DNA of 64,000 bases from positions 1,659,001 through 1,723,000 of the forward strand of contig CP054184.1 in the NCBI GenBank assembly GCA_015709715.1. The letters are read 5' to 3'. This document shows positions 33,484 to 48,526 of the stretch, one piece after another. A program made the translations under genes and the position numbers. How positions within the stretch are numbered: position 1 is the first letter of the stretch; every line of letters begins with the position of its first letter. The notes below the pieces were generated by a model that was not told where the DNA came from, did not search any database, and saw only the letters and a program-made list of their open reading frames with translations. The DNA is from Nitrospira sp. (lineage in GTDB: Bacteria; Nitrospirota; Nitrospiria; Nitrospirales; Nitrospiraceae).

Positions 33484-33513
33484 TTGACACTCCCTGAACC
33501 CCTTTGCTACTCT
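33484..33513 (+). promoter_or_regulatory. Promoter of the polyprenyl synthase-hpnA-cruF genes
   Basis: TTGACA (33484-33489), 18-base spacer and TACTCT (33508-33513) preceded by an extended TGC. Confidence 0.5.
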
Positions 33514-33587
33514 CACGCGCACATGAAGACCCACGGCTTCCCAGTCGCCTCCGCATGAGCCCCACGAGCCAACTCTCTCCCACAGGC

Positions 33588-34478
33588 ATGGACATCCGCG
33601 AATACCTCGAACGCAAGCGCGAGGAGGTCGACCGCTATCTGCAATCGGTGATTCCGAGCGCGGAGACGATGCCGACCACCCTGCACGAGAGCATGCGCTA
33701 TAGCCTCTTCGCAGGCGGGAAGCGGGTACGGCCCATTCTGGCCATCGCCGCCGCTGAAGCGGTCGGCACGGCAGGCCAAGCCGTCTTGCCGGTGGCGTCT
33801 TCTCTGGAATTGATCCATACCTATTCACTGATTCACGACGACCTCCCGGCGATGGACAACGACGACTTTCGCCGCGGGAAGCCGACCAACCACAAGGTGT
33901 ACGGCGAGGCCATGGCCATTTTGGCGGGAGATGCGCTCCTGACCATGGCGTTCGAGCTGTGCGCGCGAGCCCACGGGGAATCTGGCCTCGACGCGGCCCG
34001 GCAAGTCCGGCTGATCCAGGAACTGGCGGTCGGGTCCGGCAACGTCGGCATGGTCGGCGGACAGGTCCTCGACATCCAGGCGGAGAACAAGGACATCGAC
34101 CTCGCCACGCTGCAAACGATCCACAAACACAAGACCGGCATGCTGATTCGCGCCGCCGTCCGCATGGGTGCCATCACTGCCGGCGCAACGTCGAGTCAGC
34201 TCGACGACCTCACGGTCTACGCCGAAAACATCGGCTTGGCCTTCCAGATCGCCGACGACGTGTTGAACGTAACCGGCACCCGCGAGGAATTGGGCAAGAA
34301 CCCGAATACCGACGCGCAGCGGGGCAAGAAAACCTACCCGACCTTCTACGGCGTCGACGGCGCCAAACAATTGGCCGAAGACTGTGTCACTCGGGCCAAC
34401 GATCGCCTGGCCTCGTTCGGAGCCAAGGCCGACCCGCTCCGCGAACTGGCGCGCTACATCACCTGGCGGAAAAACTAA
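33588..34478 (+). CDS. Polyprenyl (farnesyl/geranylgeranyl) diphosphate synthase
   Basis: Trans-prenyltransferase of about 296 residues that chains isopentenyl diphosphate onto allylic diphosphates. The first Asp-rich motif is DDLPAMDND (Asp84-Asp85) with the two-residue insertion of bacterial type II FPP synthases; the second is QIADDVLN. GGKRVRP near the N terminus binds substrate. The frame is open to 33504; I start at the ATG at 33588 (MDIREYLERK), with 33555 as an alternative. Position before hpnA and a carotenoid gene suggests it feeds C30 or C40 terpenoids. Product length cannot be set from sequence. Confidence 0.9.
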   Translation: MDIREYLERKREEVDRYLQSVIPSAETMPTTLHESMRYSLFAGGKRVRPILAIAAAEAVGTAGQAVLPVASSLELIHTYSLIHDDLPAMDNDDFRRGKPTNHKVYGEAMAILAGDALLTMAFELCARAHGESGLDAARQVRLIQELAVGSGNVGMVGGQVLDIQAENKDIDLATLQTIHKHKTGMLIRAAVRMGAITAGATSSQLDDLTVYAENIGLAFQIADDVLNVTGTREELGKNPNTDAQRGKKTYPTFYGVDGAKQLAEDCVTRANDRLASFGAKADPLRELARYITWRKN

Positions 34479-34582
34479 CCGTCCTTCGTGAACGGCCCCG
34501 TGACTCCACTCGCTCACCGTCCCCATCGCTTGCCTCGCAGGCGCATGATGCGGCATCCTGCCCCCATGAAGGACTGCTTCCA

Positions 34583-35566
34583 GTGAAAGCCCTCGTCACC
34601 GGCGCAACCGGATTCGTCGGCGGAGCCGTGGCCCGCGCCTTGGTCAAGGCCGGAGTCGAGGTGCGCGTCCTCACCCGCAAGGGGGCCGACCTCCGCAACC
34701 TGGCCGGTCTGACGGTCGAGCAGGTCCATGGCGACTTGCGTGATCGCGCATCGCTCCGTACGGCCTTGGCCGGCTGCCGACATCTGTACCACGTGGCGGC
34801 GCATTACGCCCTCTGGGCGAAGGACCCGTCCATCTTCTACGATATCAACGTGACCGGCACGAAGACCCTGCTGGAAACGGCCCGCGAGGTCGGCATCGAG
34901 CGCACGGTCTACTGCAGCACCATCGGGGCCATCGGCTTGCCGCCGGAGGGAGGGCCGGGTACGGAGGAGACGCCGGTCTCGTTGGAGCAAATGGCCGGCC
35001 ATTACAAACGGTCGAAGTATCTGGCCGAGCAGGAAGTGCTCAAACTCGCGCGGGAAGGCTTGCCGGTCGTCATCGTCAATCCCAGCGCACCGGTCGGCGA
35101 GGCCGACGTGAAACCGACTCCCACCGGCCAGATCATCGTGGATTTCATGCTGGGCCGGATGCCCGCCTACATCGAAACCGGCATGAATCTCATCGACGTG
35201 GACGACGTGGCCCAGGGGCATCTGCTCGCGATGGAGCGGGGCCGCCAGGGGGAGCGGTACATCCTGGGAAACCGGAATCTGTTGCTGAACGAAGTGTTCC
35301 ACATCCTCAGCCGCCTCACGGGGGTGAAGGCGCCCACTATCAAGCTGCCGCGCGCGGCCATCTTGCCCTTGGCCTATGCCAACCAGTGGTTCGCCAATGT
35401 CACCGGCGTCCCGCCGCGCATCCCGCTCGAAGGCGTGAAGATGGCCAAGTACAAGATGCATTACGACTGCAGCAAGGCGATCCGAGAACTGGGCCTGCCA
35501 CAGACACCGGTGGACGTGGCGCTGGAAAAGGCCGTGCAGTGGTTTCGGCGTCACGGCTACGTCTAA
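34583..35566 (+). CDS. hpnA: Hopanoid-associated sugar epimerase HpnA
   Basis: NAD-dependent epimerase/dehydratase of 327 residues. It has the Rossmann motif TGATGFVGG (about residues 6-14) and the catalytic Y-x3-K in HYKRSKYLAEQ. It also has HVAAHYALWAKDP and NPSAPVGEADVKPTPTGQ, both typical of HpnA. The start is a GTG at 34583 with GAAGGA nine bases upstream; the longer overlapping frame from 33959 is not real. HpnA-type genes occur with hopanoid biosynthesis, where the role in side-chain formation is not settled. It follows the polyprenyl synthase and precedes the CruF-like gene. Confidence 0.88.
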   Translation: MKALVTGATGFVGGAVARALVKAGVEVRVLTRKGADLRNLAGLTVEQVHGDLRDRASLRTALAGCRHLYHVAAHYALWAKDPSIFYDINVTGTKTLLETAREVGIERTVYCSTIGAIGLPPEGGPGTEETPVSLEQMAGHYKRSKYLAEQEVLKLAREGLPVVIVNPSAPVGEADVKPTPTGQIIVDFMLGRMPAYIETGMNLIDVDDVAQGHLLAMERGRQGERYILGNRNLLLNEVFHILSRLTGVKAPTIKLPRAAILPLAYANQWFANVTGVPPRIPLEGVKMAKYKMHYDCSKAIRELGLPQTPVDVALEKAVQWFRRHGYV

Positions 35567-35586
35567 TCGAATGCTCAACTCGCCCG

Positions 35587-36396
35587 ATGGAATTCGCCCT
35601 CCTCTTCTTTAAGACCATCGCCTTCCGCCCCTACGTGTTCGCCTTCCTGGCCGCATTTCTGGTTGCCGCCGTCGCGCTGATCGGCTGGCCCCGCACCTGG
35701 CGCTTCTGGCTCATCAGCTGGGCCACGGCCTTCGTCTGCGAATATTCGTCCACCCGCACGGGTATCCCCTTCGGTTGGTACCATTACAACGGTTCCACCG
35801 TCGGGCAGGAGCTGTACTTCTCGAATATCCCCTTCATGGACTCGATCTCGTTTTCCTTCCTCCTCTACGCCAGCTATTGCCTGGCGCTTCTGCTGCTCTT
35901 GCCGATCCGGTCGGATAGTCGGGGTGCGCGATGGCGACTTCCCGACATGCAGTTCGACCTTTCCCTGCGCACATCCTGGTCGGTTTTTGCGCTGGCCGTG
36001 CTCCTGTTCGCCTTCATCGATATGGTGATCGATCCGGTCGCGCTAAGGGGGGACCGCTGGTTCCTGGGCAAGATCTATTATTATCCCGACCCGGGCGTGC
36101 ATTACGGCGTCCCCATGGCCAACTATGTCGGCTGGGCCGTCGTCGGTGCGATGTCCCTCTGGGCCTATTTCCCGCTCGACCGCCGACTCGACGCATCGCT
36201 TCCCCCCCATACTCCTTCGACGACCCACCGCCTGCTCCTGGGTGTCGGACTCTACTACGGCGTGCTGGCCTTCAATTTGGCCGTCACCTTCTGGATCGGT
36301 GAAGCGTTGCAGGGCACCACCGGGCTCCTGATGTACGTGCCCGTCACTGCGCTCCTGCTCCTGCGCCTGTTCATGCCTGCGACACACTCTGTCTAA
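35587..36396 (+). CDS. Carotenoid biosynthesis membrane protein (CruF-like, DUF422)
   Basis: 269-residue protein with seven or eight hydrophobic segments. GIPFGWYHYNG and HYGVPMANYVGWAVVG match the DUF422 family, which includes the CruF 1',2'-hydratase acting on carotene end groups. The ATG at 35587 starts 20 bases after the hpnA stop. Genes for phytoene synthase or desaturases are not in the window, so the carotenoid route is only partly visible. Confidence 0.82.
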   Translation: MEFALLFFKTIAFRPYVFAFLAAFLVAAVALIGWPRTWRFWLISWATAFVCEYSSTRTGIPFGWYHYNGSTVGQELYFSNIPFMDSISFSFLLYASYCLALLLLLPIRSDSRGARWRLPDMQFDLSLRTSWSVFALAVLLFAFIDMVIDPVALRGDRWFLGKIYYYPDPGVHYGVPMANYVGWAVVGAMSLWAYFPLDRRLDASLPPHTPSTTHRLLLGVGLYYGVLAFNLAVTFWIGEALQGTTGLLMYVPVTALLLLRLFMPATHSV

Positions 36397-36431
36397 ACGC
36401 ACCCCGAGCCCGCCGCTACGCGGCGCTGCGA

Positions 36432-36461
36432 TTGGCATTCATTCGGCCAAGACGGTATAGT
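36432..36461 (+). promoter_or_regulatory. Promoter of the cytochrome c gene
   Basis: TTGGCA (36432-36437), 18-base spacer, TATAGT (36456-36461). Confidence 0.55.
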
Positions 36462-36501
36462 GTGGAAAGGCGTGACGCCCGGGGTGGAAGGTTCGTCTCT
36501 G

Positions 36502-37119
36502 ATGAAGAAACTGTGCGGACTATTGATGATTGGATTCTTCGCCATGCTGGGAATCTTCGGATGGTTCGGCTACCAATCCTACTCGACCGGTTTCAGCGCC
36601 AAGGCGGAACCGAATGAGCTGGAAGTGCTGATCGCCAGACAACTCCGCCATCTGGCCATTCCCTACGAGAATCGGCAGTTGCGAAACCCGTTGCCCGTCA
36701 CGCAGGAGCTGATGAAAGAAGCGCGCGCCCACTTCGCGGACCACTGCGCCAGTTGCCACGCCAACAACGGCAGCGGGGAGACCGTGATCGGCAAGAACGT
36801 CTATCCGAAAGCGCCGGACCTTCGGCTGCCGGACACGCAGACGATGTCGGACGGTGAATTGTTTTTCATCATCCAGAACGGCATTCGATTCACCGCCATG
36901 CCCGGCTGGGGCACCGGCGATCCGACGAAGGACAGCGGCAGTTGGCAGCTGGTGCACTTCATTCGTCACCTCCCCAGCCTGACCGAAGAAGAGCTGGAAG
37001 AAATGCGCAGCCTGAATCCCAAGACCAAGAAGGAACTGGAAGAGGAAGCCCTCATCGACCAATTCCTCGGCGGAGATGACTCCGCTGCCCAAAAGGCCAC
37101 CGACTCCCACCACCATTGA
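36502..37119 (+). CDS. Membrane-anchored mono-haem cytochrome c
   Basis: 205-residue protein with an N-terminal anchor or uncleaved signal (about residues 4-26). A single haem site CASCH (82-86) and a methionine ligand in FTAMPGWG (Met133) mark a class I cytochrome c. The tail is acidic and ends in SHHH. It would act as a periplasmic electron carrier. The ATG at 36502 has GGAAGG upstream. The redox partner is unknown. Confidence 0.88.
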   Translation: MKKLCGLLMIGFFAMLGIFGWFGYQSYSTGFSAKAEPNELEVLIARQLRHLAIPYENRQLRNPLPVTQELMKEARAHFADHCASCHANNGSGETVIGKNVYPKAPDLRLPDTQTMSDGELFFIIQNGIRFTAMPGWGTGDPTKDSGSWQLVHFIRHLPSLTEEELEEMRSLNPKTKKELEEEALIDQFLGGDDSAAQKATDSHHH

Positions 37120-37139
37120 ATTCAACGAAAGGACGACCC

Positions 37140-37457
37140 GTGACTGCTCTGCGACTCCTCATTGCCGCCCTGTTCCTGATCGCCACCCCGGTGCTGGTCT
37201 TGGCCCACGGCAGCGGCCAGCATGTGCTGGGCGTCATTTCCGCCATCGATGCTACCCATATCGAGGTGAAAACCCCGAAGGGTCAACTGGTGTCGGTGCG
37301 CCTGACCGATAAGACCGAGTACAAGGTCAAGAATCTCAGCCGGCCCAAGAGCCCGCCGCAAGTGGGGGACCGCGTGGTGGTGGAAGCCGAAAAGAGCACG
37401 GACGGCTTGGTCGCCACCGAAGTGCATTATTCCGATTCCGCCAAGGCCAAACACTGA
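37140..37457 (+). CDS. Small exported protein with DUF5666-like domain
   Basis: 105-residue protein with signal peptide (cleavage after about VLAHG). The mature part VISAIDATHIEVKTPKGQ, then KTEYKV and VGDRVVVEAE resembles small beta-barrel DUF5666-type domains. I start at the GTG at 37140, with AAAGGA seven bases upstream. It is likely periplasmic and co-transcribed with the cytochrome gene 20 bases upstream. Function unknown. Confidence 0.7.
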   Translation: MTALRLLIAALFLIATPVLVLAHGSGQHVLGVISAIDATHIEVKTPKGQLVSVRLTDKTEYKVKNLSRPKSPPQVGDRVVVEAEKSTDGLVATEVHYSDSAKAKH

Positions 37458-37463
37458 GAAGGG

Positions 37464-37916
37464 ATGCGCGTGTTTCACCTCCAACACGTCCACCAGACCG
37501 GCGGCGACGGCCTGCGCCCTGTCGTCATGCGGGTGCTGGTGACCGGGATCGCGGTATTCTTGGCCGTGACGGTGGTGCCCGGCATCGAGTCGAACAGTCT
37601 CGGCGCCGGGCTCGCGGCGGTATTGGTGCTCACCCTGCTGAACGCGATCATCCGTCCGCTGCTGTATTTTCTGTCCCTGCCCCTGATCGTGGTCAGCCTC
37701 GGGTTCTTCATGCTGGTGATCAACGCCCTGCTCTTACAGCTGACCGCCGCCCTGGTAAAGGGCTTCAATGTGGCCGGCTTCTGGGCCTCGTTCTGGGGCG
37801 CCTTGGTCATCAGCGTGGTCAGCGCCGTTCTGAACATCGTGCTGGCCATCGAGCAGACCAAAGCCCATACGATCGACCCTCCTCGCCGCCCCCCCACGAT
37901 CATCAATCCCGATTGA
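37464..37916 (+). CDS. Phage-holin-family / YvlD-type membrane protein
   Basis: 150-residue protein with four hydrophobic segments. NAIIRPLLYFLSLPLIVVSLG is typical of the 4-TMS holin superfamily IV (YvlD) proteins, which are chromosomal and not obviously phage-related. The start is uncertain: ATG 37464, GTG 37470 (AAGGG five bases upstream) or ATG 37527 are all in frame. Function unknown. Confidence 0.75.
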   Translation: MRVFHLQHVHQTGGDGLRPVVMRVLVTGIAVFLAVTVVPGIESNSLGAGLAAVLVLTLLNAIIRPLLYFLSLPLIVVSLGFFMLVINALLLQLTAALVKGFNVAGFWASFWGALVISVVSAVLNIVLAIEQTKAHTIDPPRRPPTIINPD

Positions 37917-37927
37917 CGACGCTTTCC

Positions 37928-37956
37928 TTGAGTTACCCCGGTGGCACTGCTACAAT
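37928..37956 (+). promoter_or_regulatory. Promoter of the GAF histidine-kinase-like gene
   Basis: TTGAGT (37928-37933), 17-base spacer, TACAAT (37951-37956) with extended TGC. The leader before the ATG at 38084 is about 120 bases. Confidence 0.7.
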
Positions 37957-38083
37957 GCGCCCCGACGCTCGACCGGACCGTCGAGAGCGTACGAGCTTTG
38001 AATTCTAACCAGCGCGTGTTTCGATCGGGCGCGAGGCCCCGCCGAGGTTTCCTGCCGGTGCGAAGTATGCTGCAAAGAGGTCG

Positions 38084-39901
38084 ATGAGCCCTTCACCTGA
38101 ACAAGCCAAAGCCGCCGCGGAAACCCATCTTCAACGGACCCTGACTTCGGTACTGAACGGATTACCCGCCGACGCGGCCTTGGCCGCCGTATTTCATCAG
38201 GAGCAGGGCCCCCTCACAGCACAGGTTCACCGTGGATTTACGCCCCGCGACGTGCAGGCCATCGTGCGGACCCTCTCGTCCCAAAAGGTGCTGACCGCCG
38301 TGCCCGCCGATGCGGAGGCTTCGCGCACCGTCCGTCTCCGCCTGGTCACGCCAGGGGCCAAGTCGCTCCTGGGTATGCCGCTTCGCCACCGCCAGCGCAC
38401 CTACGGCTTCCTCGTCATCGGACGGAAAGACAACGCCACCTTCGCCAAGAAAGACAAGGCGATGTTGGAACAGGCCGGGGACGACATCACCAAAGCCCTC
38501 GAACGGGACAGCCTCTTCGACCTGAACATGCTCCTGAGCCGTCCCTTAGTCTCGAAGGAACCTCTCCCCTCACCCGCAACCGTCGAGGCCTTCACCGCCC
38601 CGACCTCCCATGCCACGCCCGAATTGCAGGAAAAGGTCGTGGCGCTTCTGAACGAGCTAGGCCAGACCTTGCCCTTCGATCGCGCCTGGATCGGCGCCTA
38701 TGATCCGTTGGCGGGAAACGTCGAGGTCCTTGGTATCGCTGGCGAACACAAGACCGATCCGAAGGACCAAAAGAAAGACCTCAAGGCAGGCCAGCGCCTG
38801 GCCTTGGACGCGTCCGCCGCGGGGTGGGCCGTGCGGCACCGCAAACCGCGCGTCGACCACGACCTGGCCTCGACCCAAGGGCGGTTTCTCGATCACAAGT
38901 ATCTGTACAAAGACCGGTTCCAATCCTCGCTGGTCTTGCCCTTTTTTCTGCGCGGCCAGGTCGGCGGGATCATCACGTTAGCCTCGAAAGAGGCGGATCG
39001 CTTCACCGTGAGTGATACGCGGCTGCTGGAGCCGATCAACCTCAAGCTATTGGACCTTTTGCAGGCCGCGCCCCCCGCGCCGTCCACCGCAGTCAAAGCC
39101 GAGGGAGCCCCGGAGGCCGAGGCCGGCGCAGTTCCGCAAGCCCCGGCGGAACCGGTCATCCGTAAACAAGAGCGGCAGGCAGCCATCGGCGAGTTCAGCG
39201 CCTTCCTGGCGACAGAGATTCGCGAACCCCTCGCCTCCATTCGGGCTCAGCTGGAAGAGGTGACTGCGGAAGGCATTCTCGACTTCGACCCGCAAACGCG
39301 CGTCGAAAATGCCATGCGCGACCTGATCCGCATCGAAGCCATCCTCAACGAGATCTTGGACTTCGCGAAACCGTTGGATCTCAACCGCCGGCTCTGTCGG
39401 GTGCCTGAAATGGTAGAAAACGCCTTGACCGTCGTTGCGACCGAGCTGGAAGCGACCAGGATCCAGGTCATCAAGGATTACGCCTCCGTCCTCGCCCCCG
39501 TGCGGGCCGACGAGGCCAAGATGCAGCAGGTGTTCTTGAGCATCTTCAAGAACGCCATCGAGGCCATGACGCCAGGCGGCATCCTGACGATTTCCATCAG
39601 CAACCAGCGGGCCGGACGACACTTGGAAGTACAGACCCTCATCAAAAACAACGGCACGCCCATTCCTCCCGAACATGTGGACAAGGTCTTCGAGCCGTTC
39701 TTCACGACTAAACGGTCCGGCACGGGATTGGGCTTGGCTACGGTGAAGAAAATTGTAGAGGAGCACCAGGGCACCATCGCCATCGCCGGCATTCCCGGCG
39801 AAGGCACCACTGTCACCATGCGGATGCCCGGCGTGAGCCGCGGACCGGCCCATCGTTATCGCGGACGAGGCCGCCGCCCTCCCCGCCGCCCGACGGCCTG
39901 A
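38084..39901 (+). CDS. GAF-domain histidine-kinase-like protein with degenerate kinase motifs
   Basis: 605-residue soluble protein. Residues about 10-150 and 180-330 are two GAF-type sensor domains, then a HisKA-like dimerisation helix and a HATPase fold. In the H-box, FLATEIREPLASI has Thr377 (codon ACA) where the phosphorylated His belongs. The N-box (FKNAIEAM) and the G2-box (GTGLGL) are normal, but the G1-box reads NNGTP instead of DxGxG. The protein may therefore bind nucleotide poorly and cannot autophosphorylate at the usual site. A role as a pseudokinase or scaffold sensor is possible. No response regulator is adjacent. Confidence 0.85.
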   Translation: MSPSPEQAKAAAETHLQRTLTSVLNGLPADAALAAVFHQEQGPLTAQVHRGFTPRDVQAIVRTLSSQKVLTAVPADAEASRTVRLRLVTPGAKSLLGMPLRHRQRTYGFLVIGRKDNATFAKKDKAMLEQAGDDITKALERDSLFDLNMLLSRPLVSKEPLPSPATVEAFTAPTSHATPELQEKVVALLNELGQTLPFDRAWIGAYDPLAGNVEVLGIAGEHKTDPKDQKKDLKAGQRLALDASAAGWAVRHRKPRVDHDLASTQGRFLDHKYLYKDRFQSSLVLPFFLRGQVGGIITLASKEADRFTVSDTRLLEPINLKLLDLLQAAPPAPSTAVKAEGAPEAEAGAVPQAPAEPVIRKQERQAAIGEFSAFLATEIREPLASIRAQLEEVTAEGILDFDPQTRVENAMRDLIRIEAILNEILDFAKPLDLNRRLCRVPEMVENALTVVATELEATRIQVIKDYASVLAPVRADEAKMQQVFLSIFKNAIEAMTPGGILTISISNQRAGRHLEVQTLIKNNGTPIPPEHVDKVFEPFFTTKRSGTGLGLATVKKIVEEHQGTIAIAGIPGEGTTVTMRMPGVSRGPAHRYRGRGRRPPRRPTA

Positions 39902-40030: not shown

Positions 40031-40399
40031 ATGAAACTCGCGATCGGCACCGTAGCGACCCTTGCAGGCGTGTTGTTTGTATTCTCTATGGCCTCAGCAA
40101 ATCCGGCGCTCCTGCCGAAGCACGAAGGCTATCCCATGAAGAACGACGGCAGCCCGGTCAACGGACAGCCGACGGCCAATGACCCCGGGCAGAAGGATGC
40201 CCGCGGGGAATCCACCCTACTCAAGTCTGCCGAGTCGTCCTCCAAGCACTCGGAGCAGAAGCTGATCAAGACCGACAATGCCCGCATCACGGAAGGCCAG
40301 GGCGCTGGCCGCTTGCCGAACGTGCAGGGCCCGCAGATCAAGATTGAGCCGCCTGTGACCTCGGCCACCAAGATCACCGGCGAGCGTAAGATCGACTAA
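40031..40399 (+). CDS. Small exported protein of unknown function
   Basis: 122-residue protein with a clear signal peptide (about residues 1-23, SMASA cleavage) and a polar, probably disordered mature part rich in Lys, Ser, Pro and Gly. It has its own near-consensus promoter, a strong ribosome binding site (AAAGGAG) and a strong terminator, so it is an independent and probably well-expressed single-gene transcript. No domain is recognised. Confidence 0.75.
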   Translation: MKLAIGTVATLAGVLFVFSMASANPALLPKHEGYPMKNDGSPVNGQPTANDPGQKDARGESTLLKSAESSSKHSEQKLIKTDNARITEGQGAGRLPNVQGPQIKIEPPVTSATKITGERKID

Positions 40400-44620: not shown

Positions 44621-45694
44621 CTAGGCAACCAGCCTGACGGGACTCGCTTCGGAGAGCAGCCGATCACCTTCGCGGTCGATCAGCTGCAGAAAGACATTCA
44701 CCAGGGTGGGATCGAATTGTGCGCCGGCCTGCCGTTCAATTTCAGCCTTGGCTTCCTTCAGTGGCATGGCCGGTTTATAGGAAGACGGGTGCGTCATGAC
44801 GTCGAAGGCATCCACGAGAGCGACGATCCTGGCAGAAATCGGGATCTGCGCTCCCTTGACGCCATGATAGCCGGTGCCGTCCCACCGCTCGTGGTGCATC
44901 AACGCGATTTCGCGCGCCATGACGAACAACGGCGCCGTGCTACCCGACAGCAGCTTTGATCCGATCTTCGTATGTTGCTTGATTGCATCGCGATCCTGGG
45001 CATCATAGGGAGTGGTTTTCATGAGGGTCCGGTCGGGAATGCCGACTTTGCCGAGGTCATGCAGAGGCGCCGTCCTCTTGATCAACTCGACCTGCGCTTG
45101 TGATTGTCCGCTGAGTTCCGCCAACCTGGCTGCCAGATTGCCCACCCGCCAGGCATGGGACCCGCTGGTATCCTCTCGATAACACGAGGCCAGGGTCAAT
45201 CGGTACAACAGATCCAGCTGCGTCTGCTCCACGACCTTCGTGCGAAGCAACACCTGCGCCTCCAAGTGCTCGTTGTGGAGGCGCAATTGCTGATGCAACA
45301 CCCTGGTCATCAACTGATTCTTGATCCGCAGCACCACCTCGATGGGGTCCACAGGCTTGTTGAGGAAGTCCTTCGCGCCCTCCGCCAAGGCCCGATGCTT
45401 CGTGGCCGCGTCCAACTCTCCGGTAATCATGATGATGGGAAGGTAGTCGTCGGGGTCGATCATCGGCAGCAACTGCCGCATCACCTCGATCCCGTCCATC
45501 ACCGGCATCTTCATATCCAGCGCCACCAGGTCCGGCTTCACCTCCTCATAGAGACGGATGGCCTCGCGAGAGTCGTTCGCCATCGTCACCTGTTCAAATC
45601 CGGCTTGCCGAAGGATCGCCTCCATCAATTTGGTGCAGCGGAGTTCGTCGTCGATGAGGAGAATACGGAAAGAGGTGTGGTTGAGGCTCTGCAT
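44621..45694 (-). CDS. Response regulator with HD-GYP domain (cyclic di-GMP phosphodiesterase type)
   Basis: 357-residue two-domain protein. The receiver domain (1-125) has DD at 15-16, phosphoacceptor Asp60 and Lys113. A helical linker leads to an HD-GYP domain with HD at 212-213 (LHDLGKVGIPD) and HHERWDGTGYHG. The GYP triplet reads GYH (275-277), a substitution near the active site. HD-GYP proteins hydrolyse cyclic di-GMP; activity with GYH is uncertain. It is the last gene of the operon with the hybrid kinase, 63 bases upstream, which is its likely phosphodonor. Confidence 0.9.
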   Translation of the reverse strand: MQSLNHTSFRILLIDDELRCTKLMEAILRQAGFEQVTMANDSREAIRLYEEVKPDLVALDMKMPVMDGIEVMRQLLPMIDPDDYLPIIMITGELDAATKHRALAEGAKDFLNKPVDPIEVVLRIKNQLMTRVLHQQLRLHNEHLEAQVLLRTKVVEQTQLDLLYRLTLASCYREDTSGSHAWRVGNLAARLAELSGQSQAQVELIKRTAPLHDLGKVGIPDRTLMKTTPYDAQDRDAIKQHTKIGSKLLSGSTAPLFVMAREIALMHHERWDGTGYHGVKGAQIPISARIVALVDAFDVMTHPSSYKPAMPLKEAKAEIERQAGAQFDPTLVNVFLQLIDREGDRLLSEASPVRLVA

Positions 45695-45757
45695 TGCCTG
45701 ATCCTAGTAGTGGAATGATGCGTGGGTTACCTGAAGCTCGCCATTACGATATCACCG

Positions 45758-48526
45758 TCAGGCAGCCTCACCAATTTCTTTCCGGCTCCCATCGGACGAC
45801 GCCGACGGAATCACCATCCTGGAAAGGGCTTTCCGGAGCGACGCCATTGTCACCGGCTTGGTGAGAGCGGCATCCACGGCATCGGACGGGTGATCCTCTC
45901 CCTCGGTTTCGTCTCCGCCGGTCAACAACAGGACCGGGGTCTGGGGAGAGACCTTCTTGATCACCTTCGCCAACTGCCGCCCTGTCATGTGCGGCATACC
46001 ATGGTCGGTCACGACCAGATGCACCCGATCGGGATGAAACTGCGTGATCGCCTCGGCGGCGCTCCCCACCAGCTGCGCGTCATGGCCGGCCACACGAAGG
46101 TATTCGCTGGTCACGCGTCCCACCAACGGGTCGTCATCCACCACCAACACCTGAAGCTTCCGACCATCCAGACTCTGGCCCTCGGACTGCCGAGCGGCCG
46201 ACAGGTCCGATTGAATCGGCAACCGGAGACTGAAGGTGGTGCCTTGCCCGACCGAGCTGGTGATGTCGATCGTGCCGCGAAGGCGTCGGATGATGCCGTA
46301 CACCATCGCAAGACCCAGCCCCGATCCCTTTTCGCCCTTGGTTGAGAAAAACGGTTCGAGGCATCGTCGGCGCACCTCGTTGGTCATACCGGTCCCGGTG
46401 TCGGTAACCTCGACGCGCACGTGGTCGCCGTCGACCTTGGTGCGGATGGTGATCGACCCGCTCTTCGGCATCGCGTCGACCGCGTTGAACACCAAATTGG
46501 TCAAGACCTCGCGCAACTCCGATTCATGGCCGGCCACCGGCGGCACGGCATCCACCTCCACATGCATCTCGATTGCGATTCCATTCGCCAGAGCTTGATC
46601 CTTCCACTTCGGCTGACTCAGCTTGACGGTTTGCTCCACCAAACGATTCAGGTCGACGATGCCGGCCAAATCCGCATCCACGCGAGGCCGGTAGAAATCT
46701 CGCAGACGGCTCACGACCTTGGCTGCATCCTTGGCCGCAAGATTGATCGTCTGCAGATACTCCTTCAACTGAGCGTCGTTTTTGGACAGGTTGGGGTCGA
46801 TCAGTAACAGTTCGCTGAAACCGACGATAGGCGAGAGCGTATTGTTGAAATCGTGCGCGATGCCGCTGGCCATCTGCCCCAGCGCCCGCAACCGTTCCTG
46901 CTGCACCATCTGTTGCTGCGCCGCCTGCAACTCGTTCAGCGCCGCTTCGAGCTTCACATTGCTCTCACGAAGGGAGGTTTCCGCCCGCTTGCGCTCCCCC
47001 AAGTCCGACGCATTGCTCAAGGCCACGGCGACCAGATCGGCCAGCTGACGCAGTTGCAAACGGCGCTCCTCATGCAACACCGGCGTCCGCAGATAGGCGA
47101 GGGCGATTGCCCCGAGCCGTTCATTCGCACGACGCAACGGGAGCAGCACGAGGGCGCCGGCTTCCGGCACGGCCAACTTGGCCAGAACACCCGACACGGC
47201 CGACGACGGAATGACCCATGGCTCCTCCAGGTCCTTCAAGAACGGCCCATCTTCGTCGCCGAGCGTGACAGCCTCCATGGCGGTATCCGTACAGTCCTTC
47301 CCCAGCCTCGTATAAAACCAACCCTGGGTCGCAGCAGACGGATCGAGCAGCAGCACCGCGATGGCCTCGCACGGGAATACCTCGCGCACACGGGCCAACA
47401 CCGTATCGACGATGCGGCTGGGATCGAGGACGGAGAGGACGGACCGGTCGATTTCATGGATAGTGGCCAGTTGCGAAAATTGCCGATTCAACCGTACGGC
47501 CATGGCGTTGAACGATTTGGCCAACTCCTCGAACTCATCGCCGCTGTGCACTCGGACGGGAGTCGAGAAATCACGGCGCGCGATCCGCCTGGTACCCTCG
47601 CCCAACCGTTCCAACGGCACCATGGTTTTGCGAATCTGGCCCACGCTCAACAGGGTGACACAGAGGACCGCCACCAAGACGATCAGGCTGAATCGCGTCT
47701 TAAAGGTTGCCAGAGGCGCCAACACTGCGGCACGCGGCTCGCTGAGCACAACGGTCCAAGGCGGAACCGAAAATTCATACCGCAGCGGAATCGACCAATA
47801 GCCGGCGATGTACGAATCCTGGCCATCGTGCCATTCAAACACCGACGGGCGATCCACCTGTTTCTGCTTGACCCACTGTCCCATTAATCGGCCCGTCGGA
47901 GACTCCGTGCAGAATAGGATTTCCGCCGCGTCTCCGAACACGCACATCGCTAAATCCGTCGGAAGCGCAACCTCCCTGACTGTCCCCCACAGATAGTCGC
48001 CGTTGATTTCTGCAAAGACTGCCTGTTCCTCCGACAGGCGGGAGCCCAACAGCCGCGCCAGAAACAGCCGCCTGGGTCCCCCTGTCTGCGCCGCCGTAAC
48101 CAAGAGGGTCTTTTTGTCGTGGAGCAGTGCCCACTGGGCAGGCGTCAGGGAAGGTAGCTCCCCTCGCCCACCGAACGGCTCTTGCGCCACTCCTCCCTTC
48201 GGCACCTGAGCCAAGGTCAGAAACAGCGGTATGTTGGGCATCGCTTCTTGTAGGGAACCAAACGACCCGGAACTCGCCGACTGGCGCTCGTGAGTCGTCA
48301 GAGACAGGAACTCTGATTCGAGAAAGAGCAGTCGTTGATAGACAGCCATACCGACGACCTTGCTTTCCTGGCGCACGCGCTTCTCGACTTGTTGCGTGAG
48401 TTGGTCCGTGACGTCGGTAAAGGCAACGAGGCTCAAGGCCCCGACGGGCAGTAAGGCGCAGAGGATGAAGAGGGCGAACACCCGGCGGGCGACACGGCTA
48501 CTGAGCGGCGAGTAGTCGATTTGCAC
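45758..48526 (-). CDS. Membrane hybrid sensor histidine kinase (Cache-like, HAMP, GAF, HisKA, HATPase, REC)
   Basis: 922 residues. Two membrane segments (about 14-38 and 275-300) flank a large periplasmic sensor domain. HAMP, GAF (about 355-510) and a coiled coil follow. The kinase has the H-box SGIAHDFNNTLSP with His558 and intact G boxes (DTGTGM, GSGLGLAM). A C-terminal receiver has Asp841 in VVTDHGMPHMTG. The start is GTG at 48526. It lies between a GspG-like pseudopilin gene (15 bases upstream) and the HD-GYP regulator, which suggests a surface- or secretion-linked cyclic di-GMP pathway. Confidence 0.92.
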   Translation of the reverse strand: MQIDYSPLSSRVARRVFALFILCALLPVGALSLVAFTDVTDQLTQQVEKRVRQESKVVGMAVYQRLLFLESEFLSLTTHERQSASSGSFGSLQEAMPNIPLFLTLAQVPKGGVAQEPFGGRGELPSLTPAQWALLHDKKTLLVTAAQTGGPRRLFLARLLGSRLSEEQAVFAEINGDYLWGTVREVALPTDLAMCVFGDAAEILFCTESPTGRLMGQWVKQKQVDRPSVFEWHDGQDSYIAGYWSIPLRYEFSVPPWTVVLSEPRAAVLAPLATFKTRFSLIVLVAVLCVTLLSVGQIRKTMVPLERLGEGTRRIARRDFSTPVRVHSGDEFEELAKSFNAMAVRLNRQFSQLATIHEIDRSVLSVLDPSRIVDTVLARVREVFPCEAIAVLLLDPSAATQGWFYTRLGKDCTDTAMEAVTLGDEDGPFLKDLEEPWVIPSSAVSGVLAKLAVPEAGALVLLPLRRANERLGAIALAYLRTPVLHEERRLQLRQLADLVAVALSNASDLGERKRAETSLRESNVKLEAALNELQAAQQQMVQQERLRALGQMASGIAHDFNNTLSPIVGFSELLLIDPNLSKNDAQLKEYLQTINLAAKDAAKVVSRLRDFYRPRVDADLAGIVDLNRLVEQTVKLSQPKWKDQALANGIAIEMHVEVDAVPPVAGHESELREVLTNLVFNAVDAMPKSGSITIRTKVDGDHVRVEVTDTGTGMTNEVRRRCLEPFFSTKGEKGSGLGLAMVYGIIRRLRGTIDITSSVGQGTTFSLRLPIQSDLSAARQSEGQSLDGRKLQVLVVDDDPLVGRVTSEYLRVAGHDAQLVGSAAEAITQFHPDRVHLVVTDHGMPHMTGRQLAKVIKKVSPQTPVLLLTGGDETEGEDHPSDAVDAALTKPVTMASLRKALSRMVIPSASSDGSRKEIGEAA

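Follow-up and report, generated by a model that had tools for sequence, protein, structure and literature searches.

A putative pseudo-histidine kinase family conserved across the order Nitrospirales

The locus and the domain architecture of its product

The window analysed here is a 64,000-nucleotide stretch of a 4.16-Mb genome of Nitrospira, a bacterium that oxidizes nitrite. On its forward strand, which carries all features described below unless stated otherwise, an open reading frame at 38084–39901 encodes a candidate pseudo-histidine kinase (hereafter the pseudokinase) of 605 residues with the domain order GAF-GAF-HisKA-HATPase_c. Pfam finds GAF in two stretches and places both HisKA (31.1 bits, cut-off 26.9) and HATPase_c (82.8 bits, cut-off 26.4) above threshold; no PAS domain is detected by Pfam at E values up to 0.1, GAF being found instead. 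GAF1 (residues about 14–141; 38123–38506) is delimited by its best Pfam stretch (GAF_3, residues 52–141) and the secondary structure of the model, and GAF2 (residues 184–317; 38633–39034) by a match to PF01590 and a GAF fold recognized by Foldseek. The HisKA or DHp domain (residues 369–429; 39188–39370) has Thr377 (codon ACA, 39212–39214) at the phospho-acceptor position. The N, G1, F and G2 boxes are all present in the HATPase_c or CA domain (residues 476–582; 39509–39829), including the N-box Asn490 (39551–39553) and a G1 box that reads NNGTP (residues 522–526; 39647–39661). The protein ends in an Arg-rich tail (residues 584–605; 39833–39898), the last 20 residues of which have a net charge of +8. 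The original prediction of a two-GAF sensor kinase with Thr377 in place of the H-box His can be read directly in the sequence, and the Pfam domains agree with it. It overlooked a second substitution, as the Thr or Asn of the H+4 position is likewise absent and is replaced by Glu381 (39224–39226).

The full-length structure model is modest (pLDDT 71.8, pTM 0.35). Its core matches ZraS, DivL, HK853, ThkA and CusS, with DivL (4q20) among the top matches. For the GAF fold of the GAF2 model, Foldseek returns many GAF domains with differing ligands, and a sequence search of GAF2 against solved structures gives only a weak GAF match (3o5y, E 0.0046). The pLDDT of the GAF2 model falls below 50 exactly over a conserved motif, residues 244–270 (38813–38893; SAAGWAVRHRKPRVDHDLASTQGRFLD).

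The gene was also predicted to have a good promoter of its own, and a promoter scan finds TTGAGT-17-TACAAT at 37928–37956, with a TG before the −10 element, ending 127 bases ahead of the ATG. Two such sites occur over the 2.8 kb scanned versus 0.5 expected, and the promoter is kept in 13 of 13 aligned genus-level loci, some of them near-identical; four more distant loci carry a related TTGC..TTGCTAnAATG form. The long 5′ leader that separates the promoter from the start codon (37957–38083) is well conserved in other members of the genus and partly missing in the species of the window, and it is possibly a regulatory RNA.

The gene upstream encodes a membrane protein (Phage_holin_4_2; 37464–37916) and is found at this position in 34 of 44 orthologous loci. 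The next gene downstream (40031–40399) encodes a small, probably exported protein with a hydrophobic N-terminus, a ANPALLPKHEGYP motif and no assigned family, which is present in 38 of the 44 loci. These include all six loci examined from family f2, where the upstream neighbours differ yet the downstream small protein stays. At one locus of family f4 (L226, 7415–8188) the gene directly upstream encodes a VTT-domain membrane protein that replaces the holin-like one. Further upstream lies a conserved isoprenoid/hopanoid/carotenoid block (33504–37916) with cruF, a cytochrome c and two genes that we take to be ispA and hpnA from reading their proteins; this block is shared by most f1 loci with enough flanking sequence.

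No kinase or regulator gene adjoins the pseudokinase in the window, and no partner kinase appears among the neighbours tabulated for synteny. On the reverse strand at 44621–48526, a hybrid GAF/HAMP histidine kinase lies beside a REC-HD-GYP regulator (domains read by eye). Matches to REC-HD-GYP occur near the pseudokinase in nine genus-level loci, the flanks of the other loci ending too early to judge.

Distribution, acceptor site and selection

The pseudokinase was found in all 29 genomes of the genus that were searched, nearly whole in 28 of them (residues 1–3 to 604–605) and as a fragment in one. A named collection adds 52 loci labelled Nitrospira, Nitrosospira (one), Nitrospiraceae, Nitrospirales or Nitrospirae/Nitrospirota bacterium; 26 loci of other groups that matched in the kinase core alone, at 28–33%, were excluded before counting. 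Across the order, 187 of 196 sampled genomes match at E ≤ 1e-60, as do 146 of the 150 good-quality genomes and 34 of the 35 genera, normally with one copy per genome. A looser search adds one genome (G039, 5e-37), and the remaining eight yield core-type kinase matches only; most of these are incomplete, but one (G073) has a completeness rating of 98%. Outside the order, the full profile matches none of about 252 genomes at E ≤ 1e-60. A search with GAF2 only matches 140 genomes of the order, the weakest at 4e-26, and outside it the best eight genomes lie between 1e-12 and 1e-14 (top 1.3e-14). The gene is kept even in genomes with just 5–11 HATPase_c matches, versus 68 in the genome of the window. 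By these sequence searches, the protein represents what appears to be a new, order-specific family of pseudo-histidine kinases.

The substitution also sets the protein apart from the other kinases of its own genome. The 68 HATPase_c places of that genome, 60 of which were fetched, gave 55 core alignment rows; 39 of these cover the acceptor site, and the pseudokinase is the sole row without His. Two rows in which the aligner printed Thr are alignment artefacts, their true reading being FLATMSHEIRTP and FLATITHELRTP. Among the 55 rows, the N..P form of G1 occurs in the pseudokinase only, and its tail charge is the highest, the next being +3. Alignment of two of these kinases had suggested that the His was lost through a three-residue deletion (FLAT-MSH-EIRTP to FLAT-EIREP); this possibility was rejected because a gapless alignment to ZraS keeps the register.

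The addition of further genomes gave 119 distinct core rows. Two that belonged to another kinase and one that was a second fragment were removed to leave 116, and 114 of these cover the acceptor site. Thr occupies it in 97 sequences, followed by Gln (7), Ala (4), Gly (2), Ser (2), Met (1) and His (1), with Tyr in none of the 114. Gln and the single His belong to family f2, and Gly and Ser to family f4. In a set of 61 distinct proteins more than 45% identical, 56 have Thr and three have Ala, the site being uncovered in two. The replacement is therefore shared by orthologues rather than being specific to one strain, and the outcome that the original prediction named as its refutation, His in the orthologues, is not what is seen. 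The lone His carrier (L208; 1–1113 of G052:C280, from a 71%-complete genome) is an f2 member with the codon CAC and an Arg at H+4. Seven f2 relatives have Gln (CAG) at this position, and its His is presumably a secondary change. The searches outside the order, with the full profile and with GAF2, returned no His-bearing ancestor or sister group.

The H+1 residue (Glu378 in the window) is Glu in 109 sequences and Asp in five, and is thus acidic in all 114. The H+4 residue is Glu in 101, Arg in nine, Pro in two and Asp and Gln in one each; it is never Thr or Asn, one of which canonical HisKA proteins carry there. In CrdS, PMC3510030 describes an H+1 acid required only for kinase activity and an H+4 residue required only for phosphatase activity, the latter being abolished in the N375A, N375Q and N375D variants. 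Judged by these roles, the absence of both the acceptor His and the H+4 Thr or Asn suggests that the pseudokinase has neither kinase nor phosphatase activity. On the assumption that this is so, Glu378 would have a purely structural role.

Selection on the acceptor site was assessed from codons and substitution rates. Thr is found in 104 of 121 distinct DNA rows and is written with all four codons (ACG 48, ACC 23, ACT 18, ACA 15); the codon drifts and the residue stays. Among 28 genus-level sequences, the median pairwise dN/dS is 0.011 for DHp, 0.016 for the tail, 0.027 for GAF2, 0.029 for CA, 0.052 for GAF1 and 0.10–0.12 for the linkers. In both f1 sets, no domain is more constrained than DHp. 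For comparison, an intact NtrY-like kinase sampled from 28 genomes of this genus has values of 0.011 for DHp and 0.031 for CA; dS is near 1, making the absolute values rough, and the comparison between the two proteins is on an equal footing. The acceptor site and the entire DHp domain are under purifying selection equal to that on an intact kinase. Loss of the His in all but one of the family sequences, the use of four Thr codons and intact-kinase-like constraint together bear out the earlier view that this is a selected pseudokinase rather than a decaying gene.

The G1 box and the ATP-binding site of family f4

The NNGTP form of G1 had been put forward alongside Thr377 as a mark of a pseudokinase. 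Its presence at residue 522 is confirmed, and the family keeps it, with N522 retained in 112 and P526 in 111 of the 113 rows that cover them. As a sign of inactivity it fails, because the NxGxP form is found in kinases that retain the His: E. coli CusS combines the G1 box ENPGTPI with the H box HEIRTPI, and ThkA combines NSGPPIP (by alignment) with AHEIRNP. The catalytic domain of ThkA was crystallized with ADP-Mg, according to the title of entry 3a0t. Loss of the H+4 Thr or Asn, together with erosion of the ATP site in one family, is stronger evidence than G1.

That family is f4, which corresponds to genus g23 and of which four members were seen. In the one member run through Pfam, HisKA is not found and HATPase_c scores 21.8 against a cut-off of 26.4. 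The N-box Asn is replaced by Cys in four of four members, and the G1 and G2 motifs are missing as well, whereas these boxes are kept in families f1–f3. In an alignment of 25 sequences, 37 residues are invariant across f1–f4; 19 of them fall within GAF2, and 17 of these lie in the motif at residues 244–270. A further 39 residues are invariant in f1–f3 and missing from every f4 member. None of these is in GAF2 and 25 are in CA, including N522, G524, P526, F536 and G548. Arg-rich tails are present in the three f4 members with a complete C-terminus, and a basic tail is also kept in the f2 members whose tails are correctly printed. The pseudokinase as a whole offers a natural series in which the acceptor is lost nearly everywhere and the ATP site in one family, with the sensor motif and the tail retained, and this series lets one test which part of the kinase fold a pseudokinase needs.

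Interpretation and comparison with known systems

The pseudokinase is probably a maintained regulator that acts through protein contacts. With a probability of roughly 0.6, we favour a conserved cytosolic allosteric pseudo-histidine kinase, similar in kind to DivL and RocA, that regulates a partner without phosphorylation of its own. This reading draws on the loss of both the His and the H+4 residue, the constraint, the persistence across the order, the loss of CA motifs in f4 with GAF2 kept, the structural match and the published precedents. What has been kept is a helical DHp dimerization domain, the GAF2 motif, the Arg-rich tail and, in most families, the ATP-binding domain. The GAF pair would sense a cytosolic ligand or state, and this signal would alter the DHp-CA conformation. 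The pseudokinase, itself phosphorylating nothing, would then bind a partner, be it a receiver domain, a second kinase or the two together, and so change the phosphorylation state of that partner. ATP is probably a structural or allosteric ligand in most families and seems dispensable in f4, and the basic tail may provide an extra anchor or contact.

Several observations count against the allosteric reading, namely the lack of a partner next door, the acidic H+1 residue in every sequence, the His of L208, the frequency of Thr at the acceptor site and the ambiguity of co-persistence. The last concerns the search for partner kinases recommended in the original prediction, which gave no adjacent kinase in the window and one weak lead. 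In seven reduced genomes (5–11 HATPase_c matches each), an NtrY-like kinase is a reciprocal best hit in seven of seven, and the pseudokinase is a reciprocal best hit in five and a profile match in the other two. The NtrY-like kinase scores above the Pfam cut-off for NtrY_N and adjoins an NtrX-like regulator (508 bits, cut-off 600). NtrY-NtrX is consequently a tentative partner candidate; co-persistence may just mean that both are core genes, because NtrY has a core bearing its own His and an adjacent NtrX-like regulator.

The protein could instead be one half of a heterodimer, using its intact ATP-binding domain to phosphorylate in trans the His that a partner kinase provides; it would then be an acceptor-less kinase and no true pseudokinase. 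The intact N, F and G2 boxes of f1–f3, a G1 form compatible with nucleotide binding as in ThkA, a CA domain under the same constraint as in an intact kinase and the retention of Glu378 would all be expected of such an enzyme. Family f4, however, has lost the N-box Asn and the G1 and G2 motifs and so has no need of the catalytic part, and no partner kinase was found adjacent in the window or among the neighbours tracked for synteny. We regard a half-kinase as unlikely.

It is improbable, in our estimate, that this histidine kinase fold has abandoned phosphotransfer and turned into a core ligand switch specific to the order, with GAF2 reading a cytosolic signal, the kinase core serving as a dimer scaffold and the Arg-rich tail providing the output by binding either nucleic acid or acidic lipids of the membrane, no response regulator being involved. 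If true, the DHp-CA scaffold would be ATP-gated in most families and ATP-free in f4. The concentration of family-wide invariant residues in GAF2 (19 of 37), a tail whose charge is unmatched among the 55 rows, whose dN/dS is 0.016 and which is kept wherever f2 and f4 tails are correctly printed, and the absence of an adjacent regulator gene are consistent with such an exit. Against it, constraint in both f1 sets is strongest in DHp, as expected if a face that binds receivers or kinases is in use.

The prevalence of Thr in 97 of 114 sequences also fits a phospho-acceptor Thr, and in a Thr/Ser autokinase the phosphate would go to Thr377 with Glu378 as the general base. A Thr fixed by selection while its codons turn over freely, beside an invariably acidic neighbour, fits this scheme. 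The 16 of 114 sequences in which Ala, Met, Gln, Gly or Ser stands at the position and the eroded ATP site of f4 do not, and we know of no precedent for a Thr being phosphorylated within a HisKA helix; an autokinase is highly unlikely. Lastly, decay or a sequencing artefact, suggested by the lost His and the eroded appearance of f4, is refuted by open reading frames, by presence in 187 of the 196 genomes sampled from the order, by His in just one of 114 sequences, by the spread of Thr codons and by domain dN/dS values of 0.01–0.05 in the genus set, with DHp and CA as constrained as in an intact kinase.

The allosteric reading can be set against systems already described; PMC12471899 is a review of two-component systems. 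By sequence, the nearest kinase cores are those of AtoS (189 bits) and ZraS (149 bits; structure 9jfj). The pseudokinase reaches neither full-length cut-off (646 bits for AtoS, 479 bits for ZraS), and the His is present in the core of ZraS. ThkA and CusS share its NxGxP form of G1 but retain the His in the H box. DivL of Caulobacter and other alphaproteobacteria is similar in having a HisKA-type core in which the acceptor His has given way to another residue and the other boxes are kept; PMC4211667 reports replacement across orthologues, by Tyr and, in Magnetospirillum, by Ala. DivL combines PAS domains with Tyr, whereas the pseudokinase has two GAF domains and mostly Thr; having neither the Tyr acceptor nor the PAS sensors, it lies outside the DivL family proper. 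Unlike DivL, it has also lost the H+4 residue, carries a basic tail and includes one family with an eroded ATP site. DivL has the partners DivK and CckA, for which no counterpart has been identified here.

RocA of group A Streptococcus, as described in PMC7028121, is a histidine kinase homologue that acts without phosphorylation of its own, through a partner kinase. It spans the membrane and has a dispensable His, whereas the pseudokinase is probably cytosolic and lacks one; its CA domain is without several kinase residues, and among the pseudokinase families only f4 is alike in this respect. A ChrS variant (PMC9491836) provides a further precedent. A search of open-licence literature found no paper on a pseudo-histidine kinase of Nitrospira. 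Only a small number of pseudo-histidine kinases are known from bacteria, and the published examples found are those of alphaproteobacteria, of a streptococcus and of an evolved strain of Corynebacterium; here a whole order of nitrogen-cycle bacteria keeps one, even in genomes that are poor in kinases.
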